From assembly GCA_019510485.1 (NCBI GenBank), contig JAEKKI010000135.1, forward strand, positions 1 to 48,884: a DNA stretch of 48,884 bases, in the 5' to 3' direction. A program made the translations under genes and the position numbers. The number at the start of each line of letters is the position of its first letter. The stretch's first letter is position 1. Positions 857 through 37,834 of the stretch are shown piece after piece. The DNA is from Catenulisporales bacterium (GTDB taxonomy: Bacteria > Actinomycetota > Actinomycetes > Streptomycetales > Catenulisporaceae). Below the pieces are notes generated by a model. The model ran no database searches. It was not told the DNA's origin and worked only from the letters and a program-made list of their open reading frames with translations.

Positions 857-867
857 GCACGAAAAGG

Positions 868-1520: not shown

Positions 1521-1553
1521 TGGTGTTCCCTCCAGACGGTCTCACCCGCTCAC

Positions 1554-3961: not shown

Positions 3962-4146
3962 GGCGGCCAGTATCGCAAGCCCGCGGCCGACAGCCCGGTC
4001 ACCGGGTCACAACTTAGTCAAACTGAGCGTGGCGGCGTGCGGGCCGGCGCGCGGAGTCCCTACTCTGATGCGATCGCTGCCGCCAGGGGAGCGCGGTCGA
4101 ATGTGAGCGGTGGCGCGCCTGACGCGCCGAGGCGTGGGGAGTGTGC

Positions 4147-6149: not shown

Positions 6150-8933
6150 TCACACCGCGTCCGCACCCATCTCCGCACCCATCTCCGCCCACACGATCTT
6201 CCCGCGGTCGGTCGGCCGCACGCCCCACCGCCGCGACAGCTGCCCCACTATCAGCAGCCCGCGATGCCGCTCGTCCATCACCTGCGTCACCGCCGGGCGC
6301 GGGATGCGGCCGTCGCAGTCGGCGACCTCCACCATCAGCCGGCCCGGATGCGAGCGCAGCGCCAGCTGGCTGGTGGTGGCCGCGTGCTGGGTGGCGTTCG
6401 GGTCCGGGTCCAGGTCCAGCGCCGCCTTGCGGATGACGGTGGCGCGGGTGCGGACCAGCAGTAGCGCCACGTCGTCGTGTTCGTCCCCGGACAGCATCGC
6501 GTGCAGCAGCCGGTCGCAGGTGCGCTGGACCGTCTCCGGCTCGCCGGGCGCGCGGCGCGGGGCGGCGAGCGTGCCGCCGGCCGGGCCGACCGTGCCGACC
6601 AGCGCCGGGCCGTCGTCGTCGCGCACCAGCTCCGTCGACAGCCGCGTCAGCCGCTCGGACAGCGGGGCGTTGTGGCATTCCACCAGGCCGTCGGTGTAGA
6701 GCAGGAGCCTGGTTCCGGCGGGCAGCCGCTCCACCTTCTCGTCGAACACCGCCTCCTCGATGCCCAGCGGCATCCCGAGGTCGTCCTCCAGCAGGTGCGC
6801 GATGCCGCCCGGGGTGATCAGCGCCGGCGGCATGTGTCCGGCACTGGCCCAGGTCAGCGCCTCCTGCGCCGGGTCGTAGACGGCGTAGACGCAGGTGGCG
6901 ATCTGCTCGCCGATGCCGTCGTCGAACGGCACCTGCGTCCCGGCCGCCGGATGCGTGCCCGTGGCACTCAGGCTGCTGCTGGTGGGCGCCGAGGACGAGG
7001 ACATCGTGCACACCAGCCGGTTCAGCAGGTGCATGATCTGCCCCGGCGGCAGGTCCATCACCGCATAGGCCCGCACCGCCGTGCGCAGCTGCCCCATGAT
7101 CGCCGCGGCCCGGATGCCGCGGCCCATCACGTCCCCGATCACCAGCGCCACCCGGCCGCCGGCCAGCGGGATCACGTCGAACCAGTCGCCGCCGACCTGG
7201 GTGCCCTGCGCCCCGGGCAGGTAGGTGAACGCGATCTCCAGCTCCGCGATGTGCGGCGGGGAGGCCGGCAGCAGCGAGTTCTGCAACTCCACCGCGGTCT
7301 CGCGCTCCTGCCGGTACAGCCGCGCGTTGTCCATCGCCGAGGCGGCCTGGGCGGCGATGCCCTTCACGATCTGCTCGTCGCGCTCGGTGAACCGGCCCGG
7401 CTCGGAGTGCCCGAAATACATCGAGCCCAGCACCGTGCCGCTGATCGTGGTGATCGGCAGCGCCAGGAACGACTTCACCGGCGGATGCCCCGGCGGCAGC
7501 CCGTGGAACGGCGCGCGCTGCCCGTAGCGGGGGTCGGTGGTGACGTCGGCGCAGCGGATCGGCGCCGTGCTCGGGAACACCGCGCCCACCAGCTGCGTGG
7601 GCCGCGGCATCGGCAGCGACTCGAACCGCTCGGCCGGGATCTTCCCGGCCAGCACGAACCGGGTCTGGGCCTGCCCGTCGGTGGAAACCAGCGAGTAGAA
7701 GCAGGTCCCGAATTCGGCGTCGATAGCGGTCGTCGCCGCGTCGGTCGCCAGTTTCGCGATCTTGCGGGTGTCCAGCTCGCGGGCCAGCGACTGCCCGATC
7801 ATGTAGAGGGTCTCGACGATCCGGGTCTCCTGCGTCAGCCGCCGCTGGGAGGCCCGCAGTTCGGCTTCGGCGGCCAGGGCCGCGGCGTTGCCGTCGCCCG
7901 GCGGCGTCGCGACCGACGAAGGCGGCGGAAGCGGCGGAAGCGGAGGATGCGGCGGCTGGGTCGGCGCCGGCGCGGCCGGTGACGCCGGCGAGGCGGAAAC
8001 CTGCTGGGGGACCAGCGTCACCGACGGCCGGTGCCCGTTCCCCGCGCCGTTCTCCCCGCCGCCGGTCTCGGCGGGCACCCCGTTGCCGGCCCCGAACAGC
8101 TGATGCCCCGATCCCGGTCCGGCAGGGGAGAACAGCGGCGCGGCGAGCAACGGCGTCAACGCCAACCGGATCGCCGCCGCCAGTGTCCGGAAAAGCGCCG
8201 CCGTTTCCGCCGGGACCTGCACCCGCGAATACAGCAGCGCCGTGTAGAGGGACGTGTTGCGCACGCCCGGCAGATCCGGGTGATCCGGCCCGCCGGAATC
8301 CAGCACCGCCCCCAGCGCGATCGCCGAGCGGATCTGGTAGTCCCGCACGAACTCCGGCGTCGGCACATACGGGCTGCCCAGCGCCTCCGGCACGTGGAAC
8401 ACGTCGAACCGGTCCCGCAGCCGCGCCGACAACCCCGGGCCGTGATCGCCGCCGGCGCCGTTGGACCGCGAACCGGTCGCCGCCGGCTGCGGCGCCGGCT
8501 GCAAGCCCAGCAGCCGGTCCAGCAGCGCCAGTGCCAGCGGCGCGCGCCGTACCACGTCGGCCGCGGACAGCGGGATCGCCTGGTGGTCGCGGGAGTTGCG
8601 GCGGTCCGACCAGTGCGGGTGGTCGCCGGAGGTGGCCAGCAAAGTCAGATAGGGCAGGCCGTCGTCGTTGGCGGCGGCGGCCGGGTCCCGGGTGGCGATG
8701 TAGGAGTGCAGGTCCGGGGTGAGGCGGTCCCAGGTGACGGTGTGGAACATGCGGGCCAGCGCGAACGCCGGGCGGCCGGACGCGGGGTCGGTGAAGGCGC
8801 GCCGCAGCCAGTCCACGACCGCGGCCGAGGCCTCCTCCATGGTGGCCGCCCCGGCGGTGGCGGCCCGAACCTCCCCGGAGGCGACGACCATGTCGGTGAC
8901 CGAGAAGCCGGTGAGGTCGAAGCCCGACGCCAT
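6150..8933 (-). CDS. GAF-SpoIIE (PP2C-type) phosphatase with a remnant HATPase domain
   Basis: A 927-residue signalling protein. Residues 1-265 are a helical region I cannot name, and 310-345 is a Pro-rich linker. A short coiled coil (355-375) precedes a GAF domain (about 385-540) and a SpoIIE-type Ser/Thr phosphatase (about 545-830). The phosphatase has GGDWFD (581-586), IGDVMGRG (599-606), SAGHMPP, YTDGLVE and HDDVALLL, the expected metal and fold motifs. The last 60 residues match only the second half of an RsbW-like ATPase (EVADCD, RHRGLLIV, GKIVWAEM). The usual N-terminal helices are missing. Such proteins usually dephosphorylate anti-anti-sigma factors. The start MASGFD is chosen by homology-like content; upstream sequence in frame looks non-coding. 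Confidence 0.85.
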   Translation of the reverse strand: MASGFDLTGFSVTDMVVASGEVRAATAGAATMEEASAAVVDWLRRAFTDPASGRPAFALARMFHTVTWDRLTPDLHSYIATRDPAAAANDDGLPYLTLLATSGDHPHWSDRRNSRDHQAIPLSAADVVRRAPLALALLDRLLGLQPAPQPAATGSRSNGAGGDHGPGLSARLRDRFDVFHVPEALGSPYVPTPEFVRDYQIRSAIALGAVLDSGGPDHPDLPGVRNTSLYTALLYSRVQVPAETAALFRTLAAAIRLALTPLLAAPLFSPAGPGSGHQLFGAGNGVPAETGGGENGAGNGHRPSVTLVPQQVSASPASPAAPAPTQPPHPPLPPLPPPSSVATPPGDGNAAALAAEAELRASQRRLTQETRIVETLYMIGQSLARELDTRKIAKLATDAATTAIDAEFGTCFYSLVSTDGQAQTRFVLAGKIPAERFESLPMPRPTQLVGAVFPSTAPIRCADVTTDPRYGQRAPFHGLPPGHPPVKSFLALPITTISGTVLGSMYFGHSEPGRFTERDEQIVKGIAAQAASAMDNARLYRQERETAVELQNSLLPASPPHIAELEIAFTYLPGAQGTQVGGDWFDVIPLAGGRVALVIGDVMGRGIRAAAIMGQLRTAVRAYAVMDLPPGQIMHLLNRLVCTMSSSSAPTSSSLSATGTHPAAGTQVPFDDGIGEQIATCVYAVYDPAQEALTWASAGHMPPALITPGGIAHLLEDDLGMPLGIEEAVFDEKVERLPAGTRLLLYTDGLVECHNAPLSERLTRLSTELVRDDDGPALVGTVGPAGGTLAAPRRAPGEPETVQRTCDRLLHAMLSGDEHDDVALLLVRTRATVIRKAALDLDPDPNATQHAATTSQLALRSHPGRLMVEVADCDGRIPRPAVTQVMDERHRGLLIVGQLSRRWGVRPTDRGKIVWAEMGAEMGADAV

Positions 8934-9228
8934 TCCCGCCGTCCTGTGGGTGGTCCGTGTGGCCCCCGGCGGGGGCCCAGACACAATCATGCCGACACAT
9001 CCTCGTCCGCCGCGGTGGTTTCCTCCATCCGGCGCGCCGCCGCCGCCGGGTCCGGCGGCCGTCCGACCTGCGCCTCTGCCACCGGTGTTGTGCCCGGGGC
9101 AGGCCGGGGCGATAGCTTTTGCCCACGATCGGGGCACCGGCGGCAGCAGATCGCGGCAATGCCTGGCAGCGCCGGGGCGGCGGCAGCGGAGGCGGACGGG
9201 ACAGCGGACCGGTCGGAAGCGGATCGCA

Positions 9229-9651
9229 GTGGGTGAGCACGCGACGACGGCGGCCACGCGGGCGCCGGACGCGGCGCGGCGGACACCGGGCAGCGCCGCG
9301 CCGGGCGCCGGCGTACCCACCGCGCCCGAGCAGCGCCAGGGCCACTCGCTGCCGGCCTCCTCGGCCGCTCCGCCCGCCGCCGCATCCTCGGCTCCCGTCT
9401 CAGCCTCCGCACTCGTGCAGTTCAAGGTAACCAGTCATGGGGACGACGGCTATCGCGCGGCCGTTACGATCACCGACACCCGGCCGCGCCGCCCGACCGC
9501 ACGGCACCTGACGTTCCGCGTCACCGGCTCCACATTAGATCAGCCTACTGATACTGGCGAGAGGGTGGCGGTGGGTGGCGTGGTGACCCGTCACCCCGCC
9601 GGCCGTCGGATCGACGGGGCGCCGTGCCACCTGCGGTACGTACCTGGATAG
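9229..9651 (+). CDS. Possible small protein with a CBM2-like or Ig-like C-terminus
   Basis: This 140-residue frame from a GTG at 9229 has fairly high GC at third positions, in contrast to the surrounding gap. An Ala/Pro/Ser-rich N-terminal 60 residues precede a beta-rich stretch reading VQFKV, YRAAVTITDTR and HLTFRV. That layout is reminiscent of bacterial CBM2 or DUF11-like sandwiches. No clear signal peptide is visible from this start, and the SD (GGAAG, about 9 bases away) is poor. A longer upstream start would run antisense to the phosphatase gene, which I doubt. It diverges from the phosphatase gene. It could also be a chance frame. Confidence 0.35.
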   Translation: MGEHATTAATRAPDAARRTPGSAAPGAGVPTAPEQRQGHSLPASSAAPPAAASSAPVSASALVQFKVTSHGDDGYRAAVTITDTRPRRPTARHLTFRVTGSTLDQPTDTGERVAVGGVVTRHPAGRRIDGAPCHLRYVPG

Positions 9652-9729
9652 GCGTTCGCGACAGGGCTCAGCGTTACAGGGCCGGCATGACAGGGCCCGA
9701 TATGACAGGGCAGAGGACTGAAGCGGGGT

Positions 9730-10401
9730 TCAGAAGCGGCCGACGCCGCCGAGCACCGAGCCCACGACGCTGCCCAGCGGGCCCAGCACCCCGCCGAGCA
9801 GTCCGCCGAGACCGCCGTCACCCTGGGTGCCGTCGCCAGGCGAAGAAGGATTGCTGTGTGAGGGCTTCGACGGGGTGGTCGACGAGGGTGACGGCTCGGT
9901 CGGCTGCGAGGGCTGCGCTGGCTGCGAGGGCTGCTGCGTCGGCTGGGTCGGCGGCGGCGAGGAGATCGACCGGGAGCGCGGCAGCGGCTCGGGAATCGGC
10001 GTCTCCTGCGTCGGCGGCGGGGAGAAGCTGCCGTTGGCGTGCGGCGGCAGCGTGGACGCCGGGGGCGCCGGTGACGTGGCGCTGTGGTACGCCGGGGCGT
10101 CCTGTATCCGGTGATCGAACGGTGCCGAGCCGCCGGTCGTGGTCGGGACGGCCGTGGGTGAGCCGGTCGCGCTCGGCGCTCCCGGGGAGGACACCACGAT
10201 CGCCGAGTTGGACGCGTCGCCGCCGGCGACGGCACTGGACGACCCGGGCGCGGCCGACGCCGGCGAGCCGGCCGAGACGGTCCCGGAGCCGGAGTGCAGC
10301 GCGGTGGCCACGGCCGTCACCGCCCCGATCCCGGCGGCCCCGCCCAGCAGCGTCTCGGTGGCCTTGCGTATCGGGCCGGTCTTCCTGTGCCGGGTCGCCA
10401 C
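9730..10401 (-). CDS. Pro/Ser/Thr-rich membrane-anchored or surface protein
   Basis: A 223-residue protein of unknown function. A basic start (ATRHRKTG) leads to one hydrophobic segment at about 19-36. A long Ser/Pro/Thr/Ala-rich region follows, with runs such as PTQPTQQPSQ, looking like a wall-spanning stalk and a likely O-mannosylation substrate. The last 26 residues are a Gly/Leu/Val pattern (LGGLLGGVLG). The GTG at 10399-10401 is chosen because GGAGGT lies 6-7 bases upstream; the ATG at 10521 has no such site. It lies downstream of the LLM oxidoreductase gene, separated by about 260 bases in which I see no gene. Confidence 0.65.
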   Translation of the reverse strand: MATRHRKTGPIRKATETLLGGAAGIGAVTAVATALHSGSGTVSAGSPASAAPGSSSAVAGGDASNSAIVVSSPGAPSATGSPTAVPTTTGGSAPFDHRIQDAPAYHSATSPAPPASTLPPHANGSFSPPPTQETPIPEPLPRSRSISSPPPTQPTQQPSQPAQPSQPTEPSPSSTTPSKPSHSNPSSPGDGTQGDGGLGGLLGGVLGPLGSVVGSVLGGVGRF

Positions 10402-10662: not shown

Positions 10663-11652
10663 TCACCGGTGCAGCTTCGGCAGCACCTCGCGCCCGAACA
10701 CCTCGATCCACTCGGCCTGGTTGCGGCCCACGTTGTGCAGATAGATCCGGTCCACGCCCAGGTCCAGGAACTCCTGGATCGACGCCCGGTGCACGTCGGG
10801 ATCCGAGGAGATGACCATCCGGCCCTCGAAGTCCTCCGGCCGCACCAGCTTGGCCATCTGCTCGAAGTCGAACGGCGAGCGGATGTCCTGCTTGGGGAAC
10901 TTCATCCCGCCGTTCGGCCACTCCTTCACCGCGTTGCCCAGCGCCTCCTCGTCGGTCGGCGCCCACGACAGGTGCAGCTGCAGGATCTTCGGCATCGCCT
11001 CGGGGTCCTTGCCGGCCTTGCGCGCCCCGGCGGCGAAGTTCTCGAACACCCCGGACACCTTCGAGTGCGCCGCGCCCGGCGTGATGATCCCGTCGGCCAG
11101 CTCCCCGGTCTTGCGGGAGGTGTAGGGGCCGGCGGCGGCGATGTAGATCGGCGGCGGCGCCTGGGGCATCGTCCACAGCCGCGTGGTCTCCAGCGTGAAG
11201 TACTTCCCGGCGTACTTCACGTCCTTGCCGGTGAACAGCTTCTGGATGACCTCGATCGCCTCGAACATCATCGCCACCCGGGTCGGGGCCTCCGGCCAGT
11301 ACCCGCCGATGACGTGCTCGTTCAACGCCTCACCGGAGCCCAGGCCCAGCCAGTGCCGCCCCGGGTACATCGCCTCCAGCGTCGCCGAGGCCTGCGCCAC
11401 CATCGCCGGGTGCATGCGGAACGACGGGCACGTCACGCCCGGCCCCAGGTCCGTCGTGGTCTGCGCGCCGATCGCGGTCAGCACGTTCCACACGAACGGC
11501 GCGTTGCCCTGCTGCGGCACCCAGGGCTGGAAATGGTCCGCGGCCATGGTGCCGGTGAAGCCGTGCTGCTCGGCCAGCGCCGAATAGTCCGTCACCTCCA
11601 CCGGGCCGAACTGCTCCAGCATGGCGGCGTAACCGATGTGCGGTGCGCTCAC
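10663..11652 (-). CDS. F420-dependent LLM-class oxidoreductase (G6PDH-like)
   Basis: A 329-residue luciferase-like (beta/alpha)8 protein closest in pattern to the coenzyme F420-dependent glucose-6-phosphate dehydrogenase-like group. Visible landmarks are ADHFQPWVPQQG in the N-terminal third, LGLGSGEALNEH, and IYIAAAGP followed by ADGIITPG. Such enzymes transfer hydride to or from F420; the substrate cannot be read from sequence. The longest frame begins at 11682, but the GTG at 11650-11652 is preferred because GGGAG lies 8 bases ahead. Two copies of a 10-bp direct repeat sit just upstream. The DinB-like gene lies 75 bases upstream on the same strand. Confidence 0.88.
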   Translation of the reverse strand: MSAPHIGYAAMLEQFGPVEVTDYSALAEQHGFTGTMAADHFQPWVPQQGNAPFVWNVLTAIGAQTTTDLGPGVTCPSFRMHPAMVAQASATLEAMYPGRHWLGLGSGEALNEHVIGGYWPEAPTRVAMMFEAIEVIQKLFTGKDVKYAGKYFTLETTRLWTMPQAPPPIYIAAAGPYTSRKTGELADGIITPGAAHSKVSGVFENFAAGARKAGKDPEAMPKILQLHLSWAPTDEEALGNAVKEWPNGGMKFPKQDIRSPFDFEQMAKLVRPEDFEGRMVISSDPDVHRASIQEFLDLGVDRIYLHNVGRNQAEWIEVFGREVLPKLHR

Positions 11653-11666
11653 GTTTTTGGCTCCCA

Positions 11667-11690
11667 ACGAAACTGGCCCCACGAAACTGG
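11667..11690. repeat. Direct repeat ACGAAACTGG x2 upstream of the LLM gene
   Basis: Exact 10-bp copies occur at 11667-11676 and 11681-11690, with a 14-bp period, starting 15 bases before the LLM start codon. Their position in the leader or promoter suggests an operator or an RNA-level site, but no regulator is known. Confidence 0.5.
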
Positions 11691-11727
11691 AACGTGTTCA
11701 CTTCCTCGTCATCCCCGACTTTAGCGG

Positions 11728-12243
11728 TCAGCGGCGATCGCGCAGCGTGACCCCGCGCACATACGCGGCCTGTCCGACGTGCTGCAACGTGTCGGAGACG
11801 ACGCTGACCAACCGCACCCCCAGCGTCACCGGCGGATCCCACCGCCGGTCGACGATCTGGTCGAAGTCGGCGTCGTTCAGAGCGCTGACGTAGGCCACCG
11901 TCTGCTCGTGGACCGCGTCGTGGTAGCCGGTCAGCAAGTCCGCGGCGGACACCCGCAACTCGCCGACGTCCCGCGCGGACTGGCCGTAGCCGGTGGCGCC
12001 GGGGGCGTACGGCGTGCCGAAGCGCTCGGCCCAGCCCTGCGCCGTCCACACCTGCTCCAGCCCGGCGACGTCGGCGACATGGTCGTCCTGTACCCGCGCC
12101 AGATGCCACAGCAGCCAGGCGATCGGGTTGGACTCGGCCGCCGGCCGCCAGTGCAGCTGCTCGACGGTGAGACCGTCGACGGTGGCGTGGACTTGTTCGC
12201 GCACCCGCCCGAAGGCGTCGATGAGGAGATCGTTACCTTGCAT
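11728..12243 (-). CDS. DinB-like (DUF664-type) protein
   Basis: A 171-residue four-helix-bundle protein. It has the metal-site pattern of the DinB/mycothiol-dependent superfamily: His in LLWHLARVQDDH near residue 50 and LQHVGQAAYVRG near the C-terminus. Actinobacterial members are often mycothiol S-transferases or maleylpyruvate isomerase-like enzymes; the substrate here is unknown. The ATG at 12241-12243 (MQGNDLL) is chosen because the protein body starts there. The 21 extra codons to 12306 encode non-family sequence. The SD is weak (GACGAG). It may be co-transcribed with the downstream LLM gene, although a repeat-bearing gap of 75 bases separates them. Confidence 0.8.
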   Translation of the reverse strand: MQGNDLLIDAFGRVREQVHATVDGLTVEQLHWRPAAESNPIAWLLWHLARVQDDHVADVAGLEQVWTAQGWAERFGTPYAPGATGYGQSARDVGELRVSAADLLTGYHDAVHEQTVAYVSALNDADFDQIVDRRWDPPVTLGVRLVSVVSDTLQHVGQAAYVRGVTLRDRR

Positions 12244-12333
12244 TCTCGTCACGCTACCGGACCCTCGCGAGTTCGGTATGGACAGCGTCCCGGCCCTACG
12301 CCACACTCGGTCAGGAGTTCTATCAGATTACTG

Positions 12334-12357
12334 ACATCCGGACATCCGGACATCCGG
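12334..12357. repeat. Three tandem copies of ACATCCGG
   Basis: Exact octamers lie at 12334-12341, 12342-12349 and 12350-12357, in the 218-base gap between the divergent DinB-like and sedolisin genes. Each junction also reads as the palindrome-like CCGGACATCCGG. It could be a simple-sequence expansion or a cluster of regulator sites. Confidence 0.6.
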
Positions 12358-12461
12358 ACCTTCAGGCATCCCACCTCTGTAGAGCACAGCGCGACGGGGC
12401 GCCGCGTGTCCGGCGGCGCCGCGGGACATGGCAGCCACCGCCATTTGCAGAGGAGCCGCAC

Positions 12462-15400
12462 GTGCACATTCCCCGATCTCGTCATCTGGGCCGGGCCATC
12501 GCCCTCACCACGGCGCTCGCGCTGACGGCTACCGTCAGCACAGCGACCGCCGGTACCGCCACCGCATCGGCCAAAACCGTGACGACCAAACCCGCCGGCA
12601 CCGCCGGCGCCAAGCCCGACGCCCGCGCGGTCTGCCCGCCGGCCGCCAAGGGCGCCTTCACGTGCTTCGCCTTGCAGCGCACTGACATCCCCGCTTCTCC
12701 CGCCGCCGGCCGCCTTGCCACCACCCCCGCCGGCTTCGGCCCGGCCGACCTGCGCAGCGCCTACAACCTGCCGCCCGACGGCGGCGCGGGCGCCACCGTG
12801 GCCGTCGTCGACGCCTACGACGACCCCAACGCCGAAGCCGACCTCGCCCTATACCGGGCCCAGTTCGGCCTGCCCGCCTGCACCACCGCCAACGGCTGCT
12901 TCAGCAAGGTCGACCAGACCGGCGGCACCACCTACCCGGCGCCGCACCCCGGCTGGGCCGGGGAGATCTCCCTGGACCTGGACATGGTCTCGGCCGCGGC
13001 CCCGCGCGCGCACATCATCCTGGTCGAGGCCAACACCCCGAACTTCACCGACCTCGGCGCCGCCGTCGACGAGGCCGTCGCCCTCGGGGCCGGCTACGTG
13101 TCGAACTCCTACGGCACCGACTACAGCTCCACCTCGGGCAGCGGCGAGGACCCCTCCGAGCTCACCGCGATGGACCCCTACTACAACCACCCGGGCGTGG
13201 CCGTCGTCGCCAGCTCCGGCGACAGCTCCTACGGCGTGTCCTACCCGGCGGCGTCGCAGTACGTCACTTCCGTCGGCGGCACCTCGCTGATCAAGGACGG
13301 CAGCGGCCGCGGCTGGTCGGAGTCGGTGTGGCAGAACTCCTACGGCGGCCCCGGCTCGGGCTGCTCGTTGTATGAGCCCAAACCGGGCTTCCAGCACGAC
13401 TCCGGCTGCGCGAAGCGCACCCTGACCGACGTCTCCGCCGTCGCCGACCCGGTCACCGGCGTGTCCGTCTACGACAGCTACCAGGCCGAGGGCTGGGCGG
13501 TCTACGGCGGCACCAGCGTCTCGGCGCCGCTGATCACCGCGGTCTACGCCGACGCCGGAGCCCCGGCCGCCGGGACCTATCCCAACGCCTACCCCTATGC
13601 GAACGTCTCAGGGCTCAACGACGTGACCCAGGGTTCGACCAGCACCTGCACCCCGTCCTACCTGTGCACCGCCGGCACCGGCTACGACGGCCCCACCGGC
13701 CTGGGCACCCCGAACGGCCTGACCGCCTTCACCAGCGGCCCGCACGCCGTCGTCACCGGCAAGGTCACCGACGGCACCGACCCGGTGGCCGGCGCCCGCG
13801 TGTCGCTGGGATCGGGCGGAGCGCCTAGCACCACCACCGGCGCCGACGGCAGCTACACCCTGACGGTGCCGCCCGGCACCTACACGATCACCGCCAGCGC
13901 CTTCGGTTACGCCGACCAGTCGGTCCCCGGCGTCCAGCTCGCCGACGGCGCCACCGTCACCGAGAACTTCGCCCTCGCGGCCGTGGCCCGGGTCACCGTC
14001 AGCGGCAAGATCACCGACGGCTCCGGCCAAGGGTGGCCGCTGTACGCGACGATCTCCGTCGACGGCATGCCCGGCGGACCGGTGTACACGAATCCAAAGA
14101 CCGGCGCGTACTCCATCCAGCTGCCGGTCAACCAGACCTACCAACTGCGCACCGTCGCCGCCTACCCCGGCTATCAGGCCACGACCACCCCGGTCACCGT
14201 GGGTGTGAGCGCCGTGACCCAGCCGATCCCGGTACCGGTGGACACCGCGTCCTGCACGGCCGCCGGATACGCCGTCGGCCATCGGGGCCCGTACCAGAGC
14301 TTCGACGGCACCACGGCCCCGGCCGGCTGGACCGTCACCGACGACACCACCACCGGCGGCTGGGAGTTCGACGACCCCGCCGGACGCGGCAACCGCACCC
14401 CGGGCGCCGGCGGGTTCGCGATCGTCGACAGCGACTACCACGGCAGCGGCAACTCGCAGGACACGTATCTGACGTCCCCGGCCGCCGACCTGTCCGGGAT
14501 CAGCGCGCCCGAGCTGGACTTCGCCACGTACTACAAGCCCTACGGCAACTCCGCCGCGACCGTCGAGGTCAGCCTCGACGGCGGCGCCACCTGGTCCGCG
14601 GTGTGGTCGCAGACCACCACCGCCGTCAGCGGTACGAAGGTGCGCATCCCGCTGCCGCAGGCCGCGGGCAAGACCGGGGTGCAGGCCCGCTTCCACTACA
14701 CCGGCACCTGGGCGTACTACTGGGAGGTCGACGACGTCCTGCTCGGCGTGTCGACCTGCGACCCGCTGCCCGGCGGCCTGGTGATCGGCCAGGTCACCGA
14801 CGCCAACACCAAGGCCGCGCTGCCCGGCGTCACCGTCACCGAGACCGCCGCGCCCAGCGTCGGCGGCACCTCGGCGACCACCACCGACCCGGCGCTGAAG
14901 GGCGCGTTCTACTGGTTCTTCTCACCGGCCACCGGCTCGGTGCCGCTGACCGCGACCAAGTCCCACTACAGCACCGGGACCGCGACGGCGACCGTGACGG
15001 CCGGCAAGGTGGTCGAAGCCGACTTCGCGCTCAAGGCCGGGCGGCTCACCGTCACCCCGGGCGCCATCACCAAGACCGTGCCCTGGGCCGGCACCGCCGG
15101 CCAGACGGTCACGGTGAAGAACACCGGCACCGCCCCGGCCACGCTGAACCTCGGCGAACAACCCGGCGGGTTCGTCATCGCCGGCGTCCCGGCCGCGCCG
15201 ACCCAGATCGTCCCGGCCCATGTCATCACCGGCAGCGCGCTGCTGGCGGCCAAGCAGCGCGGCGCGGCGGCGGTGCACAACACCGCCCCGACCGCCGGCG
15301 ACACCTGGCAGCCGCTGGCCAACTACCCGACCCAGATCCAGGACGACATCGCCGACTTCTCCGGCGGCAAGCTCTACGCCGGATTCGGCTACGACGGCAC

Positions 15401-30269: not shown

Positions 30270-30307
30270 GGGCGCCGGCGCCGAAGGGCGGAAAAGGGGG
30301 GCTCGTC

Positions 30308-31546
30308 ATGTCCGGAGCCGACGCCGAACACGTCGTCGCCGACCGCTACCGGCTGCTGACCCGCATCGGCCGCGGCGGCATGGGCGAGGTGTGGTCCGGG
30401 CGCGACCTGCGGCTGCACCGCGATGTGGCCGTGAAGATCTTCCACGGCGGGCCGGGCGCGACCGCCTCAAGCCTGCCGGGCTGGCTGCGCCGCGAGGGCA
30501 TCGCCGCGGCGCAGATCGTGCACCCGAACGTCGCGGTGCTCTACGACCAGGGCGCGCACCAGGACCAGATCTTCCTGGTGATGGAGCTGGTCTCCGGCGC
30601 CACGCTGGCCGACGTCATGCGCGGCGGCCGGCTGTCGGTCCGCGACACGCTGAAGATCGGCTCGCAGGTCGCCGAGGCCCTGGCCGCCGCCCACGCCGCG
30701 CGCGTGGTGCACCGCGACATCAAGCCGCAGAACGTGCTCGTCACCCCGGACGGCACGGTGAAGGTCGTCGACTTTGGCATCGCCGGCTTCCTGGCCGACA
30801 CCCGGTCGTGGAGCCTGGGCGGATCCAGCGCCACGGTCAAGGGCTCCGGCACCCCGGACTACGCCGCCCCCGAGCAGGTGATGGGGAACAACGCCGACGC
30901 CCGCAGCGATCTGTACTCGCTCGGGACGCTGCTGTACGCGATGCTCACCGGCGAGGTGCCGTTCCAGGCGGCGAATTTCCTGGACGTCATGCGCCAGAAG
31001 GCGACGGAGGACGCGCCGCCGCTGCCGCCGGGCTCGGGTGCGCCGCGGGAGCTGGCCGAGCTGGTCGCGGAACTGCTGGCACGGGAGCCGGAGCGGCGGC
31101 CGACCGCTGCGCGGCAGGTCGCGGCGCGGCTGCGGGCGATGCTGGAGCGTTCGGGGCGGAGTGAAGCTGAGGTTGAGGTTCAGGGTTCGACCTCACTCGA
31201 TGAGACGTTGAGGGTTGGGGAAGCGGGCGGTGCGAAGGCGCTGCTCACTGAAACAGGGCCCGAAACGCCGCCGGTGTGGGGCCCCGGCCCGTCCAAGGAT
31301 CAGGTCGCGCCACCGGAGCCGTCGGCGTGGGAGCCGCTGGCGGCGACCGGCGCGACGGTTCTGTCGGCGCTGGCCGCCGTCGAGGTGCGCGGCCGGTCGT
31401 TGTTGCCGTCCCCGGCGCCCCTGCCGTCGGGGGAGCCGGTAGGGGAGAGCGGGTATCCGTTCCCCTGGCGCTCAGTCTTGATCAGAGCTCTTCTGCTGCT
31501 CGTCGCGGCGGCGGTCACGCTGGTGGTGGTTTTCGCGACCGGCTGA
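30308..31546 (+). CDS. Ser/Thr protein kinase (PknB-like) with a bare C-terminal TM
   Basis: A 412-residue Hanks-type kinase. The domain (about 14-275) has the glycine loop IGRGGMGEVW, catalytic Lys43 (AVKIF), HRDIKPQN (135-142, Asp137) and DFG (155-157), so all active-site residues are present. About 110 Pro/Glu-rich juxtamembrane residues follow. A single TM at about 388-410 ends the protein, leaving no extracellular sensor domain. GGGG-rich SD (AAGGGGGG) lies before the ATG. It converges on the TPR-CHAT gene with stops one base apart (31544-31546 and 31548-31550), so the two transcripts probably overlap. Confidence 0.93.
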   Translation: MSGADAEHVVADRYRLLTRIGRGGMGEVWSGRDLRLHRDVAVKIFHGGPGATASSLPGWLRREGIAAAQIVHPNVAVLYDQGAHQDQIFLVMELVSGATLADVMRGGRLSVRDTLKIGSQVAEALAAAHAARVVHRDIKPQNVLVTPDGTVKVVDFGIAGFLADTRSWSLGGSSATVKGSGTPDYAAPEQVMGNNADARSDLYSLGTLLYAMLTGEVPFQAANFLDVMRQKATEDAPPLPPGSGAPRELAELVAELLAREPERRPTAARQVAARLRAMLERSGRSEAEVEVQGSTSLDETLRVGEAGGAKALLTETGPETPPVWGPGPSKDQVAPPEPSAWEPLAATGATVLSALAAVEVRGRSLLPSPAPLPSGEPVGESGYPFPWRSVLIRALLLLVAAAVTLVVVFATG

Positions 31547-31547
31547 T

Positions 31548-34217
31548 TCACCCCCCGAAACCGAAGCACACGAAGCCCCCGATCCCGGTCGCCGCCGACG
31601 CCTCGGCCAACGCCAAAGCCGGGGGACGTCCCTTGGCCAGGGCGGCGTGCAACGCGAGCATCAGGGTGCGGGTATCAGAGTCGTCGACCGGGGTGACGCT
31701 GGCTATCAGGGTGCGGGTGCCCAGCGCGAACACCGCCGAGGCCAGGCCCATCAGCTCATCGCCGGGACGCACGCCGGACAGGGCCGACTCACATGCCGAC
31801 AGCACCAACAGCTCCGGTGTTGAGCCCAGGCGTTCGAGGTCGTAGACGTATAGCGGGCCGTCGTGGGCGTCCAGGCTGGAGAACAGCGGATGATCGGACC
31901 GGAACCGGCCGTGGGTGGCGACATGCGCCAGCGTCGCGCCGTCCAGCGCCCGGGTGACGTTCGTGGCGGTGGCTTGCTCCCCGGCGAGCACCACGGCCTC
32001 CGGATACCGCGCGGCCAGCGCGGTGATCTCCGGCTCGGCGTGCGCCAGGCCCGGGCCGGCCATCAGGACCGTGCCCCGGCCGGTGGCCGAGGCGCCGTGG
32101 CCGGCCGCGGCCGCCCGCGCCGCCGCCTTCCACAGCCGCGCCGACGGCGTCACGCTCACCGCCCGCCCGGCACATGTCGGCAGCGCGGTCCAGGGCAGCG
32201 CGTGCAGCGACCCGGTCGGGACGATCACCAGCGGACGCTCGGTCCCACCGGCCTCGCCCCCGCGCCCGCCGTCCATCGCCCGCCGCACCGGCCCGAACAG
32301 CAGCCCGTCCAGCACCGCCCGGCTGTGGTCGTAGGCCTCGACCGCGGCCTTCTGCATCACCGGCGACCCGAACCGCCGCGACATCCGGTTCATCGTGAAC
32401 CGCACCGCGTCCAGCTGCCGCAGGACCGCGGCGTACGAACCCAGACGGTGCCGCCGCACCACCCCGTCGCGCACCGTCACCGCGTGCAGGTCGTCGTCCA
32501 GGCGCATGAACTCCACCAGCACCCGCTCGCCCAGCGTCTCGGCCAGCGCCGCCGGCGCGAACGGCGGCTCGGGGGCGTAGGCCCCGCGCGCATACCGCGA
32601 ACGGTCCCGCACCGCCGCCTCCAGCCGCAGCCGTTCGGCGTTCAGCCGCGACACCTCCGAGCGCGCGGCCCCCCGCATCGCCGGCGACTCGATCGTCGCC
32701 AGGTCCGCCACCACCCGCCGCAGCTGCGCCAGGTCCGCCGCCAGCTGCTCGTCGTCCGGCGGCCGCACCGGACGCCGCCGCAGCGACGCCGCCCGCCACG
32801 TCTCGGCCCACCGCAGCACCGCTCGCGCATCGCCGCGCTCCAGCGCCAGCCGCAGTCCGAGCGTGGCCAGCTCCTCGCCGCGCGCCGCCGCGTGCGCCCG
32901 CAGGTCGGTGGCGCCCAGGACGGCGTTGTTCTCCGCGTGCACCCGCAGCCCCGCGCGCAGCGCCTGCTCGGCCGCCGAGGGACGGCCCGCGCTGAGTGCG
33001 TGCAGCGCCTGGGCGTGCCAGGCCAGAGCCCTGATCTCGGCTACGCCCCGGTGCCGATGCCGCGCCACCTGCTCGAACAGCTCCCGTGCCTGGTCGTGCC
33101 GCCCCAGGTCGGTGGCGACGCGTCCGGCGATCAACCGCGCCTCGTGCGGAGCCACCGGCCACTTGGCCGCCGTCAGCCGGTCGCCGAGGCCGGAGGCCTC
33201 GCGCAGCAGGGCCGGGGTGCGCTCGCCGGTGGCGAAGCGGGCGGAGACCTCGGTGTGGCGGGCCAGGTCGGCCCAGGCGGCGCGACGCTGTCGGCTGAAC
33301 ATGCCGCGCGCAGTGCGCGCCGCTGTGGCCGCCGCGGCGGGGTCGCCGTCGGCCAGCGCGGTGCGCGCGTGCATGAGATGCGATTCGGCCAGGTTGTAGC
33401 GGAATCCGCTCCTCTCCTGCTCGGCGATCGATTCCGTGACGGTGGCGCGGGCTTCGGTGGCCAGCCCGGCAGCCAGGAGCATGTCGGCTCGGTCGGCGTA
33501 CAGGTTCGTGCCGCGCTTGCCGTGCGCGGCGTACAACTCGGCCGCCGAGTCGAGCCGGTCCAGGGCTTCGGGCAGGTTGCCGGTCATGCGGGCGAGGTAG
33601 CCCAGATTGAGCTGGATCATGGCGTTGAGCAGGCGGTAACCCGCTTGGCGGCTGAGTTGTTCGCCCCGGAGCAGGTTCGCGGCTGCCTCCCGGTATCGCC
33701 CGGCATACAGGTGCAGCACGGCGCGGCAGTTCAGCAGCAGCGTCTCCCAGCGAGCGTCGCCCGCGGCGCGCAGCACCGGCTGGCCGCGGTCGAACGCCGC
33801 CAGTGCCTCGCTGGTGCGGCCGATGCGAATCAGGACCAGTCCCAGGTTGACGTCCAGCCGGGCTGAGTCCGCGCCGGTCAGCACCGCGGCGGCCAGTGTC
33901 GCCTCGGCCAGCGCGGCCTCGGTCTGCCCCAGGTCGGAAAGGATCACCACCAGCGACATCCGGGCCTCGGCGGCGCGATAGCGCTCGCCGCACTTCTCGG
34001 CCACGGCGATCGCTCGGCGCAGGGTTCGCACGGCGCGCGCCAGGTCGCCGTTCTCCTTCCACGACAGGCCCAGTGCGCGCAGGGCTATGGCGGCGGCCTC
34101 GTCGTTCCCGGAGTCGGCCAGCACGGATTCGGCGGCCGAGCGTCCCGCGGCCGGGTCGGCGAGCACCAGATCCACGGATTCCAGTGCTCGCGCGAGCCGG
34201 TCGGCGAAGATTGGCAT
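31548..34217 (-). CDS. TPR-CHAT caspase-like protease
   Basis: An 889-residue protein. Residues about 25-440 are tetratricopeptide-type helical hairpins. After a helical linker (about 440-560) comes a CHAT domain, a caspase-like cysteine protease fold, from about 560 to the end. The catalytic dyad is His769 (ATHGRF) and Cys809 (LSACES), both intact. The C-terminus GGFVCFGFGG is typical of actinobacterial TPR-CHAT proteins. It is the last gene of a minus-strand cluster encoding an S8 protease, a sigma factor and a small Ig-like protein, 134 bases after the last of these. CHAT proteases elsewhere cleave a specific protein after a TPR-sensed trigger. Confidence 0.9.
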   Translation of the reverse strand: MPIFADRLARALESVDLVLADPAAGRSAAESVLADSGNDEAAAIALRALGLSWKENGDLARAVRTLRRAIAVAEKCGERYRAAEARMSLVVILSDLGQTEAALAEATLAAAVLTGADSARLDVNLGLVLIRIGRTSEALAAFDRGQPVLRAAGDARWETLLLNCRAVLHLYAGRYREAAANLLRGEQLSRQAGYRLLNAMIQLNLGYLARMTGNLPEALDRLDSAAELYAAHGKRGTNLYADRADMLLAAGLATEARATVTESIAEQERSGFRYNLAESHLMHARTALADGDPAAAATAARTARGMFSRQRRAAWADLARHTEVSARFATGERTPALLREASGLGDRLTAAKWPVAPHEARLIAGRVATDLGRHDQARELFEQVARHRHRGVAEIRALAWHAQALHALSAGRPSAAEQALRAGLRVHAENNAVLGATDLRAHAAARGEELATLGLRLALERGDARAVLRWAETWRAASLRRRPVRPPDDEQLAADLAQLRRVVADLATIESPAMRGAARSEVSRLNAERLRLEAAVRDRSRYARGAYAPEPPFAPAALAETLGERVLVEFMRLDDDLHAVTVRDGVVRRHRLGSYAAVLRQLDAVRFTMNRMSRRFGSPVMQKAAVEAYDHSRAVLDGLLFGPVRRAMDGGRGGEAGGTERPLVIVPTGSLHALPWTALPTCAGRAVSVTPSARLWKAAARAAAAGHGASATGRGTVLMAGPGLAHAEPEITALAARYPEAVVLAGEQATATNVTRALDGATLAHVATHGRFRSDHPLFSSLDAHDGPLYVYDLERLGSTPELLVLSACESALSGVRPGDELMGLASAVFALGTRTLIASVTPVDDSDTRTLMLALHAALAKGRPPALALAEASAATGIGGFVCFGFGG

Positions 34218-34351
34218 GCGGATACTGTCTCAAACCTGGTGCGTATCCTCACGCCCCGTACCGAAAGAGGCTGCCGCGGCCGCGGCCCGAGCGCGGCGGC
34301 GATCACGAGTTCGGCGGCGGCCGCGGGGGAAGTCGCGGTCGCGGCCGGGTC

Positions 34352-34819
34352 TTAGACGGTCACCCAGCTGGTGACCACGGCGCCGCCGCCGGGTGTGCTC
34401 AACGCGACCCGTGCGGGTCCGGCTGGCACCGCCTCAGCGCTGAACAGGCCCTGCTCGTCCACGGCGACGGTGGTGGCGCCGGCCGGATGCTCGATCCGCA
34501 GTGTGTCCGAACATGCCGGTATCAGCTGCCCGACGAGCTTGCGGCGGTCGCCGATCTCGGTGACCTCCACGACCACGTTCACACTCGGCGCCTCGAACGT
34601 CAGCAGCCTGGTGTCGGTCCCGCGCACCGAGCCGACGCCGGCCAGCCGGGAATCCTCGGCCAGCTCGGCCAGCTCGGCGTCTATGGTCCGCCAGGTGAAG
34701 GCCGCGTGGCCGGCCCGCAGCACCCCCGGCGGCACCGGGTCCACCTTGTCGAACATCTCGCCCACGGCGGACAGCAGTCCGATGTCCTCCGCTGAGGCCC
34801 CGTTCGTCAACTTCGGCAT
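34352..34819 (-). CDS. Small two-part protein linked to the sigma and CHAT genes
   Basis: A 155-residue soluble protein. The helical N-terminal part has DPVPPGVLRAGHAAFTWRTID near residues 27-47. The C-terminal part is a beta-rich domain reading LVGQLIPAC, VAVDEQGLF and AGPARVALS, like the carboxypeptidase-regulatory/transthyretin-like fold. GGAGGGGG lies 4 bases before the ATG, which is better than the longer frame from 34846. It sits between the ECF sigma gene and the TPR-CHAT gene. From this position I infer a partner or target, for example a sigma-binding protein cleaved by the protease. No enzyme residues are evident. Confidence 0.75.
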   Translation of the reverse strand: MPKLTNGASAEDIGLLSAVGEMFDKVDPVPPGVLRAGHAAFTWRTIDAELAELAEDSRLAGVGSVRGTDTRLLTFEAPSVNVVVEVTEIGDRRKLVGQLIPACSDTLRIEHPAGATTVAVDEQGLFSAEAVPAGPARVALSTPGGGAVVTSWVTV

Positions 34820-34876
34820 CGTTCCCCCTCCGGTCGTGTCCCTCATCGGGCGCTGATGTGTCGGTGTGCTGGATGT

Positions 34877-35461
34877 TCACGAGCCGGTGGTCTCCGGCAC
34901 GCTGGATAACGCCTTCAGAGCCCGCTTGAGATGCTCCAGGCAGCGCGAGCGGGTCGGCCCGATCGACCCGACGCGCATGCCCAGGGACTCGGCGACGGCC
35001 GTATAGCTCTCCAACGGCGTCACCGCGACCACCCGCAGCAGGTTCCGGCAGCGCTCCGAGAGCGTGGCGAACGCCTGCCACAGATCGCTGCGGTCCTGCT
35101 CGGCGACCAGCGCCGCCTCCGGATCGCCGTCGTCCTCGGCATCGCTGAAGAACGACGGGTTCTGATCGGCTTCCTCCGAGTCCGGGATCTCCCGCTGTGC
35201 CTTGCGGAGCAGGCGCAGCGACTCCCTTCGCGTCGTGGTGGCCAGCCACCCCGCCAACTGGTCCGGGTTCTGGATCCGGTCGAGGTTCTCCACCAGGCGG
35301 AGCCAGGTGGTCTGGCTGACGTCGGCGGAGTCGGCGACCGACAACCGGAACCCGCGCGCCACGGACCACACCAGCCGGTGATAGTCGTCGACGATCTGGT
35401 TCCAGGCTTGTTGGTCGCCGTCCGCCGCCGCTTTCAGCAGCAGCGCGGGGGAGCGGTCCAT
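34877..35461 (-). CDS. ECF-like sigma factor of the CHAT/S8 cluster
   Basis: A 194-residue sigma-70 family protein. Region 2 covers residues 20-90 (AWNQIVDDYHRLVWSVARGF, SQTTWLRLVENLDRI, LAGWLATTTRRESLRLLRK). An acidic linker (94-125) follows. Region 4 covers 128-183 (LWQAFATLSERCRNLLRV and the helix SYTAVAESLGMRVGSIGPTRSRCL). The start at 35459-35461 has GAAGG 7 bases upstream. A longer frame to 35596 lacks sigma-like sequence. It lies 52 bases after the S8 protease gene and 57 before the small Ig-like gene. No dedicated anti-sigma factor with a TM is present nearby. Confidence 0.88.
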   Translation of the reverse strand: MDRSPALLLKAAADGDQQAWNQIVDDYHRLVWSVARGFRLSVADSADVSQTTWLRLVENLDRIQNPDQLAGWLATTTRRESLRLLRKAQREIPDSEEADQNPSFFSDAEDDGDPEAALVAEQDRSDLWQAFATLSERCRNLLRVVAVTPLESYTAVAESLGMRVGSIGPTRSRCLEHLKRALKALSSVPETTGS

Positions 35462-35513
35462 GTCGTGCCTTCTCACTGTGTTCGGTACTCGGGGGGTGAG
35501 TGCGGGTCGGCCG

Positions 35514-36704
35514 TCAACGGCTCTCCGCGGGGCCCACGACCACCCCCAGGTCGGGGATCCGGTAGCGGTTGGGGTCGAGCAGCTCGCTGACGGCATCGCG
35601 CGCTGCCATGTCCTTGGCGGCCATCAGGGCCGCGATACTACCGGTCACGTACGGGGCGGCGAAGCTGGTTCCGCTCCACGTGGCGAAGCCGTGGAAGTCC
35701 TCGCCGTGCTCCCGGCCGTGGGTCAGGAAGCAGCTGGTGACATTCTCCCCCGGTGCGGCGGCGTCCACCCACCAGCCGTAGTTGGAGAACGAGGCCCGCT
35801 CAGGACCGTCGGCACCGTTCTCGCTCGCCAGCGCCGCCACGGCCACGACCTCTTTGAGCGCGGCGGGCCAGTACGGCCGGTCCGTGCCCTGATTGCCGGC
35901 CGCGGCAACCACCACGCTGTGCCGGGACACCCTGGCCACCGCGTTGGCCAGCACCGGCGAAGGGCGGTCGTCGAAGGTGTAGCAGCCCAGCGACAGGCTC
36001 ACGAGGTCCAGCCGGTCGGAGTCGGCCGCGGCTCGCGCCTGCACCCGGGTCAGGCCGCGCAGCAGCTCCAGCTCGTCGGTGATGCCGTCGTCGCTCAGGA
36101 CGCGCTCCACGCGCAGGTAGGCGTTCGGGGCCTGCTGCAGCACCATGCCGGCGATGAAGGTGCCGTGCCCGGCCTCGGAGTCCAGTTCCCAGTCGGTGTC
36201 GGCCTCGGCGCTCTCGTGTTCGTCCGGAGTGCAGCAGCCGTACCACTCGGCGCCGTCGAACCACGGGTGCGCGGCGATGCCGGTGTCCAGGACGGCCACG
36301 GTGACCCGACGGCTGTCGGTGCCGTTCGCCGTCGGCGCGGGCAGCGTGTCGGTCGGCCACGGTGCGCCGAACGGGCCGCCGGTCATATCCGGTGCCCCCC
36401 GCATCACATGGTTCGGCGTCACACTCATCCGCCGATGCGCCCCCGCCCCGCCCCGCAAGTCGTGCACCAGCCCCGGCGCGTCCACCCCGGCGTCGGGCCG
36501 CAGCCGCAGCCGCGCCACGCCGAGTTCGCTGAAGTCCTCCCGCGAGTCGACCCAGCGCCGTGCCTGCTCGTGCACCGCGTCGGCGTGAGCGCCGAGCACC
36601 AACAGCTCGTCCTTCTTGATCAGCGCCTCGGTGGCACCTTCGACGTGGACTATGTCGGGGTGATTCTCCAGCAGCCGATTCAGGCGCGCCGCATGATCCC
36701 TCAT
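35514..36704 (-). CDS. Cytosolic subtilisin-like (S8) serine protease
   Basis: A 396-residue subtilase. The triad is Asp140 (VAVLDTGIA), His180 (AGHGTFIAG) and Ser347 (SGTSFAAP), with oxyanion Asn271 (AAGNQG), all intact. There is no signal peptide. Residues 1-125 form a helical N-terminal region with no recognisable inhibitor propeptide, so the protease is probably intracellular. GGGAGGG lies 5-7 bases before the ATG at 36702-36704, favoured over 36740. It is the first gene of the S8-sigma-small protein-CHAT unit. A leader with many G-runs lies upstream (see 36817). Confidence 0.9.
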   Translation of the reverse strand: MRDHAARLNRLLENHPDIVHVEGATEALIKKDELLVLGAHADAVHEQARRWVDSREDFSELGVARLRLRPDAGVDAPGLVHDLRGGAGAHRRMSVTPNHVMRGAPDMTGGPFGAPWPTDTLPAPTANGTDSRRVTVAVLDTGIAAHPWFDGAEWYGCCTPDEHESAEADTDWELDSEAGHGTFIAGMVLQQAPNAYLRVERVLSDDGITDELELLRGLTRVQARAAADSDRLDLVSLSLGCYTFDDRPSPVLANAVARVSRHSVVVAAAGNQGTDRPYWPAALKEVVAVAALASENGADGPERASFSNYGWWVDAAAPGENVTSCFLTHGREHGEDFHGFATWSGTSFAAPYVTGSIAALMAAKDMAARDAVSELLDPNRYRIPDLGVVVGPAESR

Positions 36705-37156
36705 CCTGCCCTCCCTAGAAACTTCGTTGTCAGCAGCCATGGTGCACTGCTACACCCGTAGGCGGAACTGGACCCCCGTCCCAGTCCCGCCCTTGGCCCC
36801 TCCGGGTTGTGCGATTCCCCCCCAGCCCCTTGCCGTGCCCCCCCAGATGGTGCAACCCCGTGTCCCCCGCGGGGTCCCCCTCTTTCCCTCCTTGCCGGTG
36901 CGGTCGCTGTCCTGGACCCGGTTGTGGTGTGCCGCACCCACCCCCCGGCGTCACGGCACACCACATCCACCCCGGTCCGGCCGGCGGCGCGTCCCCCCTA
37001 GAGATCACACCGACGTGGACCACACCAGCGGGCCCCCCGACCCGCTCACTTACAAGAGCCGCCGGATGCGCCCCTGATACATCCGGCGCCATATTTTTTT
37101 GCGGAAGTTTTCGACACCCCGTCAGAGCTGTCACCGGCTGCGGATAGGTTCGGCGT
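36705..37156. other. Gap between the S8 protease and ung genes
   Basis: This gap of 452 bases has no protein-like frame: the frames on both strands give low-complexity Pro, Gly and Arg sequence. It is strongly C-rich on the plus strand (G-rich in the S8 leader). It ends in a short AT-rich patch at 37080-37120 and a TAGGTT (37145-37150) six bases before the ung ATG. That could be a -10 element of a leaderless transcript or simply part of a weak SD. Confidence 0.5.
36817..36844 (-). promoter_or_regulatory. G-quadruplex-prone run in the S8 gene leader
   Basis: On the minus (S8-sense) strand this reads seven G, eight bases, four G, CT, seven G. Further G-runs follow upstream to about 36895. This can satisfy G3-N1-8 quadruplex rules as DNA or RNA. 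It lies 113-140 bases ahead of the S8 start codon. Whether it is transcribed is unknown. Confidence 0.4.
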
Positions 37157-37834
37157 ATGCGTGAACTCATCCCCGCCTCCTGGGCGCCGGTGCTGGCCGC
37201 CGAGACCGAGCAGCCGTACTTCGCCGACCTGGAGGCCTTCCTGAAGAACGAGCGCGCCGAGCACCAGGTGTTCCCGCCCGAGGACGAGGTGTTCGCCGCG
37301 CTGGCCGCGACGCCCTACCAGGACGTGAAGGTCGTGCTGATCGGCCAGGACCCGTACCACGACGACGGCCAGGCCCACGGCATGTGCTTCTCGGTGCGCC
37401 CCGGTGTGCGGATCCCGCCGTCGCTGCGGAACATGTACAAGGAGCTGGAGACGGACCTGGGCATCCCGCCGGTCAAGCACGGCTATCTGAAGGCGTGGGC
37501 CGATCGGGGCGTGCTGCTGCTGAACACGGTGCTGACCGTGCGGGCGCACGAGCCGGCCTCGCACAAGGACCGCGGCTGGGAGAAGTTCACCGACGCGATC
37601 ATCAAGGACGTCTCGGCGCGGTCCCAGCCGGCGGTGTTCGTGCTCTGGGGCGCGCACGCGAAGAAGAAGGCGAAGCTGATCGACAGCTCGCGGCACGCGA
37701 TCGTCGCCGGCGCGCACCCCTCGCCGCTGTCGGCGAAGTTGTTCTTCGGGTCCAAGCCGTTCTCGGCGGTCAACGAGGCGCTGGCCGGCTTCGGGGCGGA
37801 GCCGATCGACTGGCGGCTGCCGGAGAGCGTGTAA
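37157..37834 (+). CDS. ung: Uracil-DNA glycosylase, family 1
   Basis: This enzyme removes uracil from DNA at the start of base-excision repair. The 225-residue protein has the family-1 water-activating motif GQDPYHDDGQAHG with Asp65 and His68, LLLNTVLTV with the uracil-binding Asn123, and the Leu/His intercalation motif HPSPLS with His187. The length and motifs are standard. The ATG at 37157 is preceded only by GATAGG at 8 bases or so. A TAGGTT six bases upstream hints at leaderless expression. A strong hairpin with a T-rich tail follows at 37853-37889, between ung and the convergent ABC gene. Confidence 0.95.
   Translation: MRELIPASWAPVLAAETEQPYFADLEAFLKNERAEHQVFPPEDEVFAALAATPYQDVKVVLIGQDPYHDDGQAHGMCFSVRPGVRIPPSLRNMYKELETDLGIPPVKHGYLKAWADRGVLLLNTVLTVRAHEPASHKDRGWEKFTDAIIKDVSARSQPAVFVLWGAHAKKKAKLIDSSRHAIVAGAHPSPLSAKLFFGSKPFSAVNEALAGFGAEPIDWRLPESV

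Follow-up and report, generated by a model that had tools for sequence, protein, structure and literature searches.

The ECF54 group of extracytoplasmic function (ECF) sigma factors (Huang 2015; Casas-Pastor 2021, as summarised in PMC8999054) is described in the available text of that review as having carboxypeptidase, subtilase and CHAT domains conserved in its genetic context, and section 3.3 proposes control by proteolysis with no anti-sigma factor. In two other systems a protease cleaves an inhibitor of a sigma factor: the accessible part of PMC10028731 describes cleavage by Csx29 of Csx30, which inhibits CASP-sigma, and that of PMC11417357 the corresponding step in CalpL-CalpT-CalpS. Here, we analyze a 48,884-nucleotide stretch of DNA from a Catenulisporales soil bacterium (contig JAEKKI010000135.1 of assembly GCA_019510485.1; the whole stretch is hereafter the window), in which four genes encode an S8 serine protease, an ECF-type sigma factor, a small protein and a TPR-CHAT protease. 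Judged by the gene context described for the group rather than by score against an ECF54 model, the locus fits closely an ECF54-type unit, and the gene association is therefore already known. Relative to what the review's available text contains, the additions made here are the small protein as sigma partner and candidate target, a separable CHAT-S8 module, an S8 enzyme resembling a pro-enzyme, and a trypsin-like stand-in for it in two genomes; part of this may already stand in Huang 2015 or Casas-Pastor 2021. The available text of PMC13118837 holds nothing on this four-gene unit.

The window is contig G000:C151 of a 5.5 Mb draft genome, and its closest titled relatives are Catenulispora records, in which the small protein is 86-93% identical. 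The original prediction, made from the letters of the window, had the four open reading frames, their coordinates, their order and their single minus strand right: S8 protease (35514..36704, 396 residues), sigma factor (34877..35461, 194 residues), small protein (34352..34819, 155 residues) and TPR-CHAT caspase-like protease (31548..34217, 889 residues), with intergenic gaps of 52, 57 and 134 bases by the reading frame coordinates. The sigma factor matches Pfam Sigma70_r2 (5e-13) and NCBIfam TIGR02937 (sigma-70/ECF) over residues 19-182 at 86.2 bits against a cut-off of 42.9. No Pfam region-4 model matches the window protein, and the sequence GSIGPTRxRCL lies close to the C-terminal end. A profile search of PDB sequences matched ECF sigma factors, and homologues occur in titled Catenulispora records.

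Both proteases carry the catalytic residues that had been predicted for them. The CHAT protein matches Pfam CHAT (1e-35) and TPR models, and its dyad lies exactly at H769/C809, with both residues kept in 43 of 43 aligned sequences (the window being one row); in stretches fetched later, all 13 sequences keep His and 12 of them keep Cys, the remaining one having a gap at that position. Since a phmmer search of the CHAT protein against the PDB returned nothing at 0.01, a CHAT profile was used instead, and the only CHAT-named chain among the best 60 of its 148 matches was 8rot, a 'CHAT domain-containing protein' that we take to be SAVED-CHAT. The S8 protein matches Pfam Peptidase_S8 (1.8e-30). Alignment with four other Catenulispora loci favors a start at 36704 over the longer reading frame from 36740, and the predicted numbering D140/H180/S347 fits that start; Asp, His, Asn and Ser are kept in 44 of 44 aligned sequences, again with the window as one row, and in 12 of 12 from the later-fetched stretches. 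No signal peptide is visible by eye in the window protein, as predicted, and a strongly hydrophobic stretch is absent from the scanned part of 42 of 44 relatives. These conservation alignments retained 53 of 58 sigma, 43 of 44 S8, 42 of 54 CHAT and 53 of 53 small-protein hits, shorter ones being dropped. The window's genome has one more CHAT match (G000:C167:10798-11256, 21.6 bits), which scores below the family cut-off.

The gene set is a real, conserved unit. The small protein occurs in 14 of 14 genomes of the window's family (10 of them of the genus, its own genome included), and of 396 genomes from across the phylum, 36 yielded it with a single-sequence query. With profiles, the 396 genomes yielded at least 56 with the sigma factor, 52 with the small protein, 48 with CHAT and 47 with all three, counts that are lower bounds because scoring was limited to 2 to 9 candidates per genome; the sigma factor was present in all 48 CHAT genomes, and the three genes come close to an all-or-nothing pattern. 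The profile search placed the sigma factor without the small protein in G120, G188, G276, G283 and G394, although the sigma factors of G120, G188 and G276 (about 4e-31) may be other ECF factors, and the small protein without the sigma factor in G228 only (E 6.9e-6). CHAT without the small protein was limited to G283, where reading the locus showed a small-protein gene. In an earlier test, 33 of 35 genomes that have the small protein, and none of 20 that lack it, yielded the sigma factor (E <= 1e-20), these 20 being the first misses listed in the phylum search; the Fisher tests of co-occurrence ignore kinship.

Gene neighborhoods tell the same story. Among 45 stretches around small-protein genes, 41 have the sigma gene adjacent, 34 hold CHAT, 31 hold S8 and 31 hold the full set; with the 12 own-family stretches excluded, the corresponding counts are 29, 22, 20 and 20 of 33. 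The 45 comprise 33 of 40 phylum matches from outside the window's own genome, 7 of 17 family-search matches and 5 Catenulispora loci; of the other seven phylum matches, two fall within stretches already retrieved, three were added at a later point and two, both weak (G391, G123), were left out. Short length or a contig end limits some stretches (L055, L069 and L091 included), and absences there carry little weight. In family f19, which entered no profile, the four genes form one same-strand cluster in 11 of 11 stretches read, from 11 of the 16 genomes with CHAT. Chance clustering is ruled out by the 396-genome co-occurrence together with the f19 clusters, and the neighbors across actinobacteria, which by its own terms would have refuted the original prediction had they been random, are non-random. 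The window thus has the subtilase and CHAT genes of the ECF54 context, as do 31 of the 45 stretches and all 11 that were read from f19. As for the third trait, 13 of 54 small proteins carry CarboxypepD_reg (best 1.7e-7), a regulatory-like beta domain and not a carboxypeptidase enzyme, to which the window protein has a weak match below the Pfam cut-off (E 0.033); we infer that this domain is the 'carboxypeptidase' of the ECF54 description.

Order and strand vary among the loci, and the set breaks mostly between the sigma-small pair and the CHAT-S8 pair. In seven stretches (L055, L058, L059, L063, L064, L065 and L070) the sigma and small genes stand without CHAT or S8, and six of these seven genomes (G249, G099, G175, G330, G131 and G321; not G399) carry CHAT elsewhere. 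Wherever the 5' side of the remote CHAT gene lies within the contig, a divergent serine protease gene is found there (five of five; S8 in four, a trypsin-like one in G249). Conversely, divergent CHAT-S8 pairs occur with neither sigma nor small gene in the stretch (L096, L097, L100, L103 and L104); in L113 a weaker sigma-like gene (E 1e-34) lies 1.2 kb from such a pair, and in L126 the pair sits on a contig of only 4.7 kb. CHAT and S8 are a module that can lie apart from sigma and small. Tandem arrays in two genomes of one genus (L082 and L083) add further S8, small and CHAT genes to one sigma-small pair, giving two CHAT genes, two S8 genes, extra small genes and a single sigma gene; a small gene there adjoins S8 and CHAT without an adjacent sigma gene, as expected of a link between modules. 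Since the small protein occurs both with the sigma factor and with CHAT-S8, it is the piece common to both modules.

Two records may be mentioned separately. On L130 (MT838002.1), an unverified 7.5 kb record with the label 'Bacteriophage sp.', all four genes lie on one strand at 6-4710 in the window's order (S8, sigma, small, CHAT); this contig may be a mislabelled bacterial fragment. In L129 (NZ_LT559118.1, Nonomuraea gerenzanensis), CHAT, matched over two frames, is divergent from S8-sigma-small; this record, entered as an 11.85 Mb plasmid, is probably a chromosome.

We give about an even chance to the reading that the ECF54-type unit is a cytoplasmic proteolytic switch that frees the sigma factor. 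The small protein would bind the sigma factor and hold it inactive, while TPR-CHAT would serve as a sensor-protease whose TPR array takes a signal and whose caspase-like domain then turns active. CHAT and its partner S8, modelled as a pro-enzyme, or the trypsin-like protein in its position, would together bring about cleavage of the small protein, and this cleavage would free the sigma factor for transcription of its targets. Either protease could act first, possibly as a two-protease relay. The small protein is the best candidate for the target because it usually adjoins the sigma gene and also occurs beside the proteases without it, and in this respect the original prediction, which had proposed it as a sigma-linked target, fits the gene context. 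The 'two-part' build ascribed to it is also borne out by an AlphaFold2 model of two N-terminal helices followed by a beta sandwich (mean pLDDT 81.7, weaker at residues 41-70), for which Foldseek returned no match at E <= 0.001. Partial correlations of distance matrices, computed from 26 loci thinned to 16 and suggestive rather than independent evidence, link small with sigma (0.53), small with CHAT (0.43) and S8 with CHAT (0.48), with values near zero for small-S8 (-0.08) and sigma-CHAT (0.02). The case for the small protein is thus one of gene company and of these partial correlations, and sequence and fold give no anti-sigma mark.

Several observations weigh against the switch. No anti-sigma family was matched by the small protein in Pfam, and no anti-sigma chain was found among the PDB sequence and fold matches listed. 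The small gene lies away from the family sigma gene in 4 of 45 stretches (L054, L056, L067 and L073); the three genomes concerned (G055, G202 and G282) encode the sigma factor elsewhere, and in L067 a sigma-like gene of another kind, encoding a SnoaL-like domain, is nearby on the opposite strand. Sigma and small occur with no CHAT detected in G282, G331, G395 and G399. A simple chain does not predict the sigma-S8 partial correlation of 0.34, and that of S8 with CHAT is poorly bounded (5-95% range 0.03 to 0.64). Motif discovery on 35 S8, 25 CHAT and 30 sigma upstream sequences, near relatives dropped, gave no shared promoter motif and mostly coding-sequence words. Finally, the proposal in the ECF54 review, in its available text, is that proteolysis controls the sigma factor without any anti-sigma factor (PMC8999054).

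That proposal supplies the degradation part of an alternative in which the sigma factor is the direct substrate of the proteases, which hold its level down by degrading it, the small protein being an adaptor or chaperone that delivers or protects it. The sigma-S8 correlation agrees with such a role. However, near small genes the sigma gene is steadier than CHAT or S8, the sigma-CHAT correlation is about zero, and a module that only degrades needs no sigma-adjacent partner; we consider this alternative unlikely. The proteolytic switch is favored further by its parallels, as far as the accessible texts describe them, with Csx29-Csx30-CASP-sigma and CalpL-CalpT-CalpS, in which cleavage of a sigma inhibitor by a protease counts for this reading.

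The S8 protein looks like a cytoplasmic pro-enzyme. AlphaFold2 gives a mean pLDDT of 91.5 and models, with high confidence, an N-terminal prodomain-like domain at about residues 15-100; Foldseek ranks PCSK9, pro-subtilisin E in its unprocessed form and mature subtilisins highest. The alignment to pro-subtilisin E (3whi) covers 407-410 columns including gaps (TM 0.59, rmsd about 6) and those to mature subtilisins about 280, so that alignments to pro-forms are about 120 columns longer, gaps included. This, with the confident N-terminal model, makes the N-terminal domain look like a prodomain; residues 1-117 alone have no Pfam match. In L061 and L125, both of family f48, a trypsin-like protein (11334-12926 and 8553-10112, respectively) holds the position divergent to CHAT. 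It has weak Pfam and PDB matches to plant NARROW LEAF 1, and its motifs NWHV, MDAA and GGDSG can be read as an H, D, S triad. A related gene lies near an S8 gene in L084 (11956-13449). Among 29 reading frames sampled around small genes without CHAT or S8, a subset of the neighbors, the majority either had no Pfam match or encode unrelated proteins such as penicillin-binding proteins, NadA, an acyltransferase and an aldehyde dehydrogenase. One, in L064, encodes a PmbA/TldD metallopeptidase beside the sigma gene and has no second case in the sample, and one in L061 is the gene for the trypsin-like protein.

These features bear on a version of events in which CHAT activates pro-S8, or the trypsin-like enzyme, which then cuts the small protein or other targets, with the sigma factor as one output in the manner of a caspase cascade. 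The prodomain-like domain, the divergent CHAT-S8 pairs that stand without sigma or small and the trypsin-like proteins with H, D and S motifs all agree with it. In the SAVED-CHAT cascade, the second enzyme is reportedly a caspase-like protease. According to the accessible part of PMC11229360, the SAVED-CHAT effector acts via a cascade of proteolytic activity, which supplies a precedent. The near-zero small-S8 correlation, on the other hand, does not point to S8 as the protease in contact with the small protein. Self-processing is usual for subtilisin prodomains, and an activating protease may therefore be unneeded. Such a relay seems somewhat improbable to us; as it is one form of the switch, the two probabilities overlap.

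A further alternative, which we hold very unlikely, is that the genes share transcription only: the sigma factor would autoregulate a group of stress proteases and have no physical contact with the small protein. The many genomes with same-strand clusters would suit this, but co-occurrence holds when the modules lie apart, as in the sigma-small genomes that carry CHAT elsewhere, and the set is kept while gene order and strand vary.

The locus can be set beside several described systems. Like Craspase (Csx29-Csx30-CASP-sigma, in the accessible text of PMC10028731), it encodes together a TPR-CHAT protein with a His/Cys dyad, an ECF-like sigma factor and a two-part partner; unlike Craspase, it includes a second protease, neither CRISPR-like repeats around it nor a RAMP match in the genome were found, and the small protein has 155 residues against 565 for Csx30. 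Craspase membership was rejected, as RAMP (PF03787) had no match in the window's genome (77% complete) and no CRISPR-like direct repeats (>=22 bases, within 120 bases) were found in window 22000-46000. The Craspase analogy drawn in the original prediction is a fair functional parallel, but the gene association, and proteolytic control as a proposal, were already published for ECF54. With CalpL-CalpT-CalpS, the unit shares a soluble protease, an anti-sigma target (a role proposed here for the small protein) and an ECF sigma factor; CalpL, by the accessible text of PMC11417357, is a Lon-type protease with a SAVED sensor, whereas here there are CHAT with TPR repeats and S8. The likeness to SAVED-CHAT lies in a CHAT protease that feeds a proteolytic cascade, here proposed; that protein, in the available description, is a cA3-triggered CRISPR effector, and Pfam reported no SAVED domain in the window CHAT protein. 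Neighborhoods of EACC2-caspase proteins, as the accessible text of PMC8195603 presents them, likewise combine a caspase-type protein with genes for an ECF sigma factor and a TPR protein, and coupling of sensing to transcription was proposed for them; the idea is related but concerns other proteins, with EACC2 and caspase domains and a DUF1822 TPR protein, and CHAT, S8 and this small protein are not described in that portion of the paper. The ECF54 context itself agrees in its ECF sigma factor with subtilase, CHAT and 'carboxypeptidase' genes and in the proposal of proteolytic control; it differs in that the proposal, in the review's available text, has no anti-sigma factor, whereas here the small protein is suggested as the sigma partner and the proteases as a separable module, with a trypsin-like protein in the S8 position of some loci.

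A role in phage response, which had been suggested for the locus, found no support, and the original prediction as a whole is partly supported. PADLOC matched only a generic subtilase model (P0003, 1.3e-20), with no model match at E <= 0.001 for the other three proteins, and the flanking genes are kept in the Catenulispora relatives compared; a phage defense island was rejected on these grounds, the RAMP and repeat searches likewise giving nothing.

No experimental study of an ECF54 system was found in the literature searched, in which the mechanism is still a proposal, and the partner and module assignments sharpen it into questions of binding and cleavage. If the switch is real, it would be a non-CRISPR addition to the known cases of sigma factor release by a soluble protease, with a second protease that is swappable between unrelated folds. 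The fullest form of the idea, a widespread actinobacterial non-CRISPR relay in which TPR-CHAT triggers a cytoplasmic serine pro-protease of subtilisin or trypsin type, and the cleaved small sigma-binding protein, a new class of soluble anti-sigma factor, leads to transcription, is in our view doubtful.

Upstream of the S8 gene lie two inverted repeats, both of which precede S8 in Catenulispora by alignment. The proximal one, of 31 bases (36761..36791, minus strand), could be an operator or a leader hairpin; it has 0 mismatches to its pattern at the locus in 10 of 10 Catenulispora genomes, and the RNA fold of 36755-36797 has -27.3 kcal/mol (z -4.6). The second conserved repeat, further upstream (36924..36964, minus strand), is aligned in three of the four relatives, which cover it, and the fold of 36918-36972 has -35.6 kcal/mol (z -4.2). 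In the proximal repeat, the single variable arm position seen is A or G facing U and keeps the RNA pair, which weakly favors a hairpin rather than an operator. A scan of 14 genomes placed exact 31-base sites at the locus only, plus one additional exact copy in G010; sites with 2-3 mismatches were few and scattered, which argues against a regulon. Rfam gave no match at E <= 0.1 in 36500-37300.

Two differences from the relatives concern the surroundings of the locus. A protein kinase domain (Pkinase 1.2e-46) is encoded at 30272-31546 on the plus strand, between the CHAT gene and a glyoxalase-like gene; as the CHAT to glyoxalase-like interval is only about 120-210 bases in L005, L006 and L007, the kinase gene was apparently gained in the window or lost in the relatives. 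In addition, window DNA at 11738-12243 is 77-79% identical to the stretch after the enoyl-CoA hydratase gene in the same three loci, and gene order thus differs there.

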